Positions 27,616-30,515 of a stretch of DNA of 64,000 nucleotides are shown one piece after another (the stretch's first letter is position 1; each line of letters starts with the position of its first letter). Location: contig LDYB01000018.1 in assembly GCA_001442985.1 (NCBI GenBank), positions 62,001 through 126,000 on the forward strand, read 5' to 3'. Made by a program: the position numbers and the translations under genes. Below the pieces are notes generated by a model. The model was not told where the DNA came from, made no database searches, and worked only from the letters and a program-made list of their open reading frames with translations. Origin of the DNA: Armatimonadetes bacterium DC. GTDB lineage: Bacteria > Armatimonadota > Fimbriimonadia > Fimbriimonadales > GBS-DC.

Positions 27616-28467
27616 TTGCAGAGAATGGACGCCCTGCTCCAGAGATGGCAAGCCGAACAGTTGTTCAGCCCTGCCGAGATTGCGACGGTTCAGGCGCAAT
27701 CCGATGGGGTGAGTCTCTACGAACGCCTATACCAGCTCTACCCCGACCGCTGGGGGGCGATGCTGGACTCACGGCGGGCGTTTTTTGAACAGTTAGACGC
27801 CTCGCTCTTTCAACGCGCCCTGCAGGCAAACATGGAAGCGCTTTTCCCGATAGAGGAATTTCATCTGCCGCTGGGGTTGTTCGGAGCGCATGCCAACAAA
27901 TGGGTTCTGGAGACGCCCTATGCATATTTACTCCATGCGGGCGCGCTTCCTCTGGGGCAGTTTGAGGGAACGCTGCTGGTTGCCGTCAAGCGCCCGCTGG
28001 GGTTCATGGCGCGCTTGCGCGCATGGTGGCTGGGCAAGCTCCATCAGGTTCGCGCGGAGCCTGCGATTGTGGAGTGGGGTACGCAACTCTTTCTGCGTCA
28101 TCAGTCTGATGCAATTGACAATAGACTGCCTGCCGCCCGGATCGCCGCAACAATCCTCCAGAAAGCGCTTGCCGAGAGGGTTTCCATCGTGGAACTGCGC
28201 AACACCTCCCGGCATGTGCGTGTTGTCGTCTGGTTGGCTTCGGGCAAATCGGAGCTGGCGCTCATCCTCCCTCGCTTTGTGTACCCTGGCCTGTTTTTGC
28301 GCTACTACTGGCTGCTCGGAATGCGCATTCAGTATAAGCAGATAGCGGACTTCGGGGAACTGTTTCTCTCCCAGCAAGGCACGCCTGTTGGGGTTGTGCG
28401 GGGCTTCGCGCACTGGGCGGGCGATGAGCACGTGTTGCGGCTTTATCTCATAGCAGAAGAAGGGTAG
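27616..28467 (+). CDS. GspE/PilB N-terminal (MshEN)-like protein lacking ATPase core
   Basis: PYAYLLHAGALPLGQFEGTLLVAVKRPL; LPAARIAATILQKALAERVSIVELRN..LILPRFVYPGLFLRYYWLLGMRI; no Walker A in 283 aa. Confidence 0.5.
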   Translation: MQRMDALLQRWQAEQLFSPAEIATVQAQSDGVSLYERLYQLYPDRWGAMLDSRRAFFEQLDASLFQRALQANMEALFPIEEFHLPLGLFGAHANKWVLETPYAYLLHAGALPLGQFEGTLLVAVKRPLGFMARLRAWWLGKLHQVRAEPAIVEWGTQLFLRHQSDAIDNRLPAARIAATILQKALAERVSIVELRNTSRHVRVVVWLASGKSELALILPRFVYPGLFLRYYWLLGMRIQYKQIADFGELFLSQQGTPVGVVRGFAHWAGDEHVLRLYLIAEEG

Positions 28468-28518: not shown

Positions 28519-28548
28519 TTGACATCGCCGAATCGGATGGGGTATAAT
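28519..28548 (+). promoter_or_regulatory. sigma-70 promoter for ncRNA candidate
   Basis: TTGACA (28519-28524) - 18 nt - TATAAT (28543-28548), both consensus hexamers. Confidence 0.85.
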
Positions 28549-28554
28549 AGGGGC

Positions 28555-28692
28555 GTCGCAAGGGAGTGCGACCTTCAGAGGACGGGAACCATCGGCAACC
28601 TCCCTGAAGCATCGGGGACACGGATGTCCCACACCTTTTTATTATGGCATCCCACGGGGCTTTCTTTAGAGGGGGCTCCGGTTTTTGTTTTT
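28555..28692 (+). ncRNA. unassigned structured RNA (three hairpins plus terminator)
   Basis: Hairpins GTCGCA/TGCGAC, CTTCAG(AGG)/(CCT)CTGAAG, GGGACA-CGGA-TGTCCC, then CGGGGC...GCTCCG-GTTTTTGTTTTT; consensus promoter; no convincing ORF on this strand. Confidence 0.6.
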
Positions 28693-28725: not shown

Positions 28726-29319
28726 CTACACAATCTCAATCAGGTCGTAGACTTTCTCGCCCTGACGGGTCAACACGCAGATGCGGTCGGTATCCGCATC
28801 GTGGAACACATAGAAGGGGCGTTCGTCCATTTCCGCCTGGAGCAGCGCTTCTTCCACGCTCATCGGCTTGAGGGTCACGCGCTTGACGGAGCGGATGGTG
28901 GGCGATTCGGGCGTCTCCTCCTCGGCTTCAGGCGCCGTTTCGGGAAGCACCGCCTCGCTCAGCGCCACCTCACGGGGCACGCGACCGCGCCCCTTCTGCA
29001 GCTTCTCTTTATAGCGCGCCAGCTGGTGTTCCAGCGCCTGCACCGCGGCGTCCACCGCACCCCGAAACTCGTGGTGACGCTCCTGAATATGGAAGGCATG
29101 CCCATCGGCGTCTACATTAATACTCACCTCGTGCTGACCGCGCACCTGCTCATGCACGAACTCCAGCGTCCAGATTTTGTGGAAGAATCGCGCCAGGCGC
29201 GCCAGCTTGCGCCGCACATAGGTCTTCTCGGTCTCGCTCAACTCGCCGTGCGGACTGCGGAAGGTTACATCGACAATCTCCACCTCTTTGCGTCGGGTTG
29301 ATTTACGCGATTTGCTCAT
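28726..29319 (-). CDS. hpf: ribosome hibernation promoting factor, long form
   Basis: YVRRKLARLARFFHKIWTLEFVHEQVRGQHEVSINVDADGHAFHIQERHHEFRGAVDAAVQALEHQLARYKEKLQKG; C-terminal dimerisation domain KPMSVEEALLQAEMDERPFYVFHDADTDRICVLTRQGEKVYDLIEIV. Confidence 0.94.
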   Translation of the reverse strand: MSKSRKSTRRKEVEIVDVTFRSPHGELSETEKTYVRRKLARLARFFHKIWTLEFVHEQVRGQHEVSINVDADGHAFHIQERHHEFRGAVDAAVQALEHQLARYKEKLQKGRGRVPREVALSEAVLPETAPEAEEETPESPTIRSVKRVTLKPMSVEEALLQAEMDERPFYVFHDADTDRICVLTRQGEKVYDLIEIV

Positions 29320-30515
29320 AGGGAACCTCCTGATGCGTATTTTTGCACTGTGGCAATCGCAAAGCATGCAATCGATTCGCCGCGCCCCATCGAATCCATG
29401 CGTTCGTTGGTGGTCGCCTTGATGCTGACCTGCGTGGGCAGGATTTCGAGGCACTGGGCAATCTGGGAGCGCATCACGGGGATATGGGGCGCGAGTTTGG
29501 GCGCTTCGGCAATCACCGTCGCGTCCAGATTTGCCACGCGGTAGCCCGCTGCTTCCACCTGCTGCTTTACCTCGCGCAGGAGCGTCAGGCTGGAGCAATC
29601 TTTCCAGCGCGGGTCGGTGTTGGGAAAGTGTTGACCAATATCGCCCAGTCCCACAGCACCCAGCAGCGCATCGCAGAGCGCGTGCAACACCACATCCGCG
29701 TCCGAATGCCCCAGCAACCCCTTTTCAAAAGGGATGGGTACACCGCCCAGCACCAGCGTTCGCCCTTCGACCAATGTGTGAATATCATACCCGATTCCCA
29801 CACGCACGCCACTCGCTTCGCCGCTGTAAAACCGCAGCAGCGCCAGATCGTCGGGCGTGGTGAGCTTGAGGTTAGACGCCTCACCGGGCACAATAACCAC
29901 CGGGTAGCCCGCCTGACGCACCAGTTCGGCGTCGTCGGGCGCGTCGTTGCGGGCAGCGGCTCGCTGGTGGGCATCTCGCAGCCATTCTTGACGGAACACC
30001 TGCGGAGTTTGAACCCGATAGAGCGATTCACGGGGGACGCTTTCCAGCACCTGCGGTGGCGAATCGGGATGAACCCGTTTGAGCGCGTCGGTAACGGGGA
30101 GCGCGGGCACCACCGCCCCATGAATTCGCACCGCCTCAAAAAGCCGATCCAGCAAGGCATGGCTCACCAGGGGGCGCGCGCCGTCATGCACCGCCACATA
30201 CGCCGCCGATTCGGGAACCCATGCCAGTCCGTTCCGCACGCTCTGCTGGCGTGTTTCACCCCCCACCGGGGCAATCTGAACCGCCTTCGGCACGGGATGC
30301 GCCTCCAGATACGCCTGATAAGCTTCTGCCGAATCGGGTGCCACCACGACGGTCGCCGACTCCACCTGCGGGTGCGTGATAACCCGCCATAATGCATGCC
30401 ACCAGATGGGCGCGCCGTTCAGCAGCTCCCATAACTTAGGGGTTTTACCGTATCGGACGCCGCTTCCGCCCGCCAGAATAAGCGCGTGAATAGTCGACTC
30501 CTGTGTCGGTTGCAT
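29316..30515 (-). CDS. ispDF: bifunctional IspD/IspF (MEP pathway)
   Basis: [26 protein letters not shown] (IspD) fused to [51 protein letters not shown] (IspF). Confidence 0.96.

Follow-up and report, generated by a model that had tools for sequence, protein, structure and literature searches.

A short intergenic RNA of the hot-spring bacterium Armatimonadetes bacterium DC is probably a free-standing, two-site sRNA of the Csr type and a competitor of flagellin mRNA for CsrA binding. It lies in a window of 64,000 nucleotides, the whole stretch of DNA that was analysed, and it belongs to a conserved family in which the loops of the two outer hairpins keep the CsrA/RsmE recognition motif. The next sections describe the gene and its relatives, the loops and their counterparts in flagellin leaders, and the other explanations that were considered.

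The RNA gene and its surroundings

The gap between an ORF of 283 aa and the convergent hpf gene is 258 bp long and holds a promoter, three hairpins and a terminator (Table 1), all of them where an earlier reading of the DNA letters (hereafter the sequence-only reading) had placed them.

Table 1. Features of the RNA locus, in window coordinates
Feature	Position	Strand	Remark
5' neighbour ORF, 283 aa, outside the RNA	27616..28467	+	no Pfam match
sigma-70/A-type promoter, TTGACA-N18-TATAAT	28519..28548	+	12/12 consensus; TTGACA at 28519-28524, TATAAT at 28543-28548, spacer 18 nt
Expected transcript start	near 28555	+	
Hairpin 1, GTCGCA-AGGGAG-TGCGAC	28555..28572	+	loop AGGGAG at 28561-28566; stem covaries
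Hairpin 2, CTTCAGAGG...CCTCCCTGAAG, putative spacer stem	28573..28609	+	covarying pairs in two helix parts
Hairpin 3, GGGACA-CGGA-TGTCCC	28615..28630	+	hexaloop ACGGAU at 28620-28625, closed by C-G
Intrinsic terminator, hairpin and T-run GTTTTTGTTTTT	28655..28692	+	terminator-like, ends at 28692
hpf (Ribosomal_S30AE), convergent neighbour	28726..29322	-	Pfam match

The promoter is the sole promoter-like match within 2.5 kb (0.7 expected) and is kept 5' of the RNA in 15 of 15 homologues. A near-identical promoter, TTGACA...GGATGGGGTATAATAGAGGGCGTC, stands just 5' of a tRNA-like gene at another place in the genome (L002 1501-1544; G000:C19:256385-256428), which makes the promoter of the RNA look strong and of the housekeeping type; it also looks constitutive. 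At the other end of the gene, the homologues have a hairpin and a T-rich tail 3' of hairpin 3, and in the divergent copy L052 TTTTTATTTTT comes directly after hairpin 3 itself.

The RNA is single copy, and its neighbour varies: hpf in the window, upp in the relatives inspected (a call read from the C-terminal sequence, without a Pfam test) and fliL in G005. Because the neighbours change among relatives, the RNA is neither a leader nor an element of hpf. The sequence-only reading was correct in describing a free-standing structured RNA that has a promoter and a terminator to itself, converges on hpf and is not the leader of the next gene, and the synteny with hpf that it proposed to check proved not to be conserved. 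A fused IspD-IspF gene adjoins hpf (window 29316-30515, - strand). A protein-coding reading of the RNA was rejected, as the homologues differ in length by 1-5 nt, mostly not multiples of three.

Distribution and structure of the family

A DNA search found relatives of the RNA within the same family of the Fimbriimonadales (Armatimonadota). A first covariance model detected it in 15 genomes of this family; after addition of the divergent copy L052, the extended model found it in 16 of the 18 family genomes, with no detectable copy in G003 and G012, and in 0 of the 95 genomes from the rest of the order. Weak matches in the order's other families (L038, L058-L061) were rejected as unrelated sequence without the loop pair. 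Scanning named genomes with a pattern gave 13 records, including some with Fimbriimonadales and Armatimonadetes/Armatimonadota in their titles.

Alignment of 15 sequences gave 96.2% standard pairs among the pair cells and nine pairs with changes on both sides, compared with a mean of 3.3 in shuffles (nine was reached in 0 of 500) and 0-3 in slid controls; as the alignment was fitted to the structure, these counts lean towards it. An initial MAFFT alignment of seven sequences agrees with the same structure. Four of the six pairs of hairpin 1 changed on both sides among the homologues, as did four pairs across the two helix parts of hairpin 2, and one stem pair of hairpin 3 goes from A-U to C-G in L052, with pairing kept. 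The RNA is a real conserved family, its conservation and covariation being far beyond chance. Folded alone, the 76-nt core gives the conserved structure; when the full 138 nt are folded without constraints, the minimum-energy structure pairs the T tail with the 5' half and disrupts hairpins 2 and 3.

The outer loops as predicted CsrA sites

The sequence-only reading missed that both outer loops, 1 and 3, follow the pattern A(N)GGAX. The A and the GGA have zero entropy in all 15 homologues, and N and X vary. In hairpin 1, N is absent, C, G or T and X is A, G or T, the loops seen being AGGAA, AGGAG, AGGGAA, AGGGAG, ACGGAA and AUGGAU; in hairpin 3, N is C, G or T and X is G, T or A (ACGGAU, ACGGAG, AUGGAG and AGGGAAU), with one base extra in the loop of L052. 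The distance from GGA to GGA is 52-60 nt. Most members of genus g5 have a pentaloop without N in hairpin 1, and such pentaloops are bound more weakly by RsmE.

High-affinity CsrA/RsmE sites consist of a stem capped by the hexaloop ANGGAX, and omission of N lowers the affinity (Duss et al., PMC4005645). The SELEX consensus for E. coli CsrA is RUACARGGAUGU (PMC7652899), to which ACACGGAUGU is the counterpart in the RNA. Loops 1 and 3 are predicted CsrA/RsmE sites, hairpin 3 being the nearest to the consensus. When three homologues were dinucleotide-shuffled 4,000 times each, two such hairpins together occurred 0 times and one in about 2%, a figure that serves as a guide because the motif was picked after the sequence was seen. 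Independent support for the predicted sites comes from the pattern of variable and fixed loop bases and from the flagellin leaders.

CsrA, FliW and the flagellin leaders

CsrA was found in 59 of the 61 genomes searched, and csrA is present without the RNA in the order's other families. The genome of the window has a flagellin-family gene, fliW and csrA in a row, CsrA (2.9e-26) adjoining FliW (1.9e-42), and an alignment of the CsrA protein with solved CsrA/RsmE chains extends along the RNA-binding fold.

Two motifs in the organism's own flagellin leader, ACGGAU (ACGGAT) some 55 nt 5' of the start codon and AGGGAG at the Shine-Dalgarno, are identical in sequence to loops 3 and 1 of the RNA. Across genera g1, g2, g3 and g5, nine leaders that belong to one flagellin type combine an upstream ANGGAN hairpin, the loop of which starts at -51 to -56 and has C, G or T as N, with ARGGAG at the Shine-Dalgarno. 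The upstream stems measure 3-8 bp (3 bp in two of the nine), and hairpins with 4 bp or more occur in 8 of the 11 leaders tested, against 0.12 expected. No upstream hairpin was detected in the 120 nt tested of the leaders of G003, which has no detectable RNA, and G005, the RNA of which is divergent. In the leaders of these two genomes (L076 and L085), a common upstream GGAGACGGAGGCGC block with ACGGA replaces the ANGGAN hairpin.

A proposed two-site competitor for CsrA

From these features we infer transcription of the RNA, binding of CsrA, titration and an effect on flagellin. The transcript, of about 100-135 nt, would be made from the strong tRNA-like promoter, and one CsrA dimer would clamp hairpins 1 and 3, the spacing of which suits its two RNA-binding faces, with hairpin 2 serving as the spacer between them. 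CsrA held by the RNA would be kept away from flagellin and other mRNAs, the flagellin leader being the clearest candidate target of this titration. As the same two loops occur in that leader, the RNA would relieve flagellin repression, and the FliW-CsrA switch would gain an RNA-based level of control. The sequence-only reading had speculated about ribosome binding or a sponge role; its sponge idea appears to have had the direction right, but the molecule titrated would be CsrA and not the ribosome.

Against the sponge counts the number of conserved sites, which is only two, where Csr sRNAs have many: CsrB contains 22 GGA sequences. An RNA that serves a single CsrA dimer must be abundant to titrate it. 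The pentaloop of most g5 members, the conserved loop of hairpin 2, the two family genomes in which no copy was detected, the occurrence of csrA without the RNA in the other families, the extra loop base of L052 and the full-length fold also speak against it.

Alternative explanations

The best of the rivals, unlikely in our estimation, is a base-pairing regulatory RNA like McaS or GadY, in which hairpin 2 acts through its loop or 3' arm and CsrA is a partner, protector or chaperone and not the target of titration. Hairpin 2 could be a spacer or have such a second function: its loop is partly conserved, with GG..., C and GGC invariant in the 15 homologues, and in the window organism the flagellin Shine-Dalgarno TCAGGGAGG has a perfect complement in the 3' arm of the hairpin, CCTCCCTGA. 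Furthermore, base-pairing sRNAs of E. coli with at least two GGA motifs bind CsrA (PMC7652899). However, most of the covariation of the arm is with its own stem, and the complementarity is missing from genus g5, where a CTCTACG arm faces AGGGAGG.

A structural or housekeeping RNA of another class, with GGA loops serving a different protein, the ribosome (by Shine-Dalgarno mimicry) or tertiary contacts, is somewhat less likely again. The strong tRNA-like promoter and the single copy would suit a housekeeping gene, and AGGAGG in some loops resembles a Shine-Dalgarno sequence, but loop 3 (ACGGAK) and the loops AGGAA, ATGGAU and ACGGAA are poor mimics of it, and the A-N-GGA-X pattern is a precise fit to CsrA and is seen again at the flagellin leaders. 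SRP RNA (4.2e-17) and a probable 6S RNA lie elsewhere in the genome, for which reason a divergent SRP or 6S identity was rejected, and the RNA matched neither the bacterial SRP RNA nor the 6S RNA covariance model. The 6S candidate, L095 (G000:C25:74602-74782), is a subthreshold match (33.2 bits, E 5.6e-5) and is probably the lineage's diverged 6S RNA. In the Rfam search with the window RNA, no family reached the gathering threshold and the relaxed threshold (E<=10) gave chance matches only, none credible, which bears out the earlier claim that the RNA falls outside the known classes.

Very improbable are the variants that the sequence-only reading itself put forward, a pseudoknotted switch or a 3'-UTR/antisense element acting on hpf: AGGGAG and CTCCCT are indeed complementary in the window and the RNA does converge on hpf, but a complement to loop 1 occurs inside the RNA in only 2 of the 15 homologues (the window's genome and G002), its loss from the other 13 leaving the pseudoknot unsupported, and upp or fliL is the neighbour in relatives.

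Relation to known CsrA-binding RNAs

CsrA antagonism is usually pictured as sRNA-based in Gammaproteobacteria and FliW-based elsewhere, and we know of no established Csr sRNA outside Gammaproteobacteria. Like CsrB/C and RsmX/Y/Z, the RNA described here is an independent gene with promoter and terminator, has A(N)GGAX hairpin loops and comes from a genome with csrA. Opposite to them, it has two sites and not many, has no Rfam match (the CsrB, CsrC and RsmX/Y/Z covariance models included) and belongs to the Armatimonadota, with FliW present; fliW is reported to be absent from Gammaproteobacteria (PMC7652899).

Outside Gammaproteobacteria, TwoAYGGAY (RF01731) and Bacillaceae-1 (RF01690) are predicted CsrA-binding RNAs (PMC4333381). 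They resemble the present RNA as small RNAs with two GGA hairpin loops and a CsrA role proposed from sequence; in contrast, the RNA studied here has a third, putative spacer hairpin, comes from another phylum, has a promoter traced in all copies and shares its genome with flagellin leader sites and csrA-fliW, and no covariance model matched. The RF01731 model was silent on the window RNA and also on the relatives, but in the latter search the positive control was equally silent. TwoAYGGAY is defined by AYGGAY in two loops; here loop 3 is ACGGAU and loop 1 is AGGGAG, with AGGAR in most relatives.

In Bacillus subtilis, the hag leader has CsrA sites, one of which lies at the ribosome-binding site. 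Two ANGGA loops occur in the flaA 5' leader of Campylobacter jejuni, where one CsrA site is likewise at the ribosome-binding site, and this leader additionally acts against CsrA as an RNA (PMC4894983); the flagellin leaders described above resemble its two-site layout. Both hag and flaA are mRNA leaders, whereas the present RNA is a separate non-coding gene. McaS and GadY of E. coli are also sRNAs with at least two GGA motifs, and they bind CsrA; the RNA has no known relation to them in sequence or structure, and for the RNA base pairing is a putative function.

According to a 2020 review, it was an open question whether any species uses FliW and sRNAs jointly (PMC7652899), and the locus provides a specific, testable case of this combination, with likely target sites in flagellin mRNA already identified. 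The chances seem to us about even that it is the first Csr-type sponge to act jointly with FliW, a minimal imitation of the flagellin leader for one CsrA dimer and an independent origin of RNA antagonists outside Gammaproteobacteria; novelty was judged from open-access papers, so that later experimental work may have been missed. The locus also suggests that other short CsrA RNAs with two sites may escape notice elsewhere, because their sites are so few.

Other candidate CsrA sites

Three loci of relatives (L010, L012 and L013, near 1501-1600) have a promoter matching that of the RNA, followed by a conserved leader ending CGGAGGTGTATG, in which RCGGAGGT ahead of the start codon is possibly one more site of the CsrA type. 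A second flagellin type (L064, L067, L068, L070-L072, L074, L079 and L083) has an apparent sigma-28 promoter, TAAAGA...CCGATAAT, and, directly 5' of the start codon, ACGGA or ATGGA, which may be an additional CsrA site.
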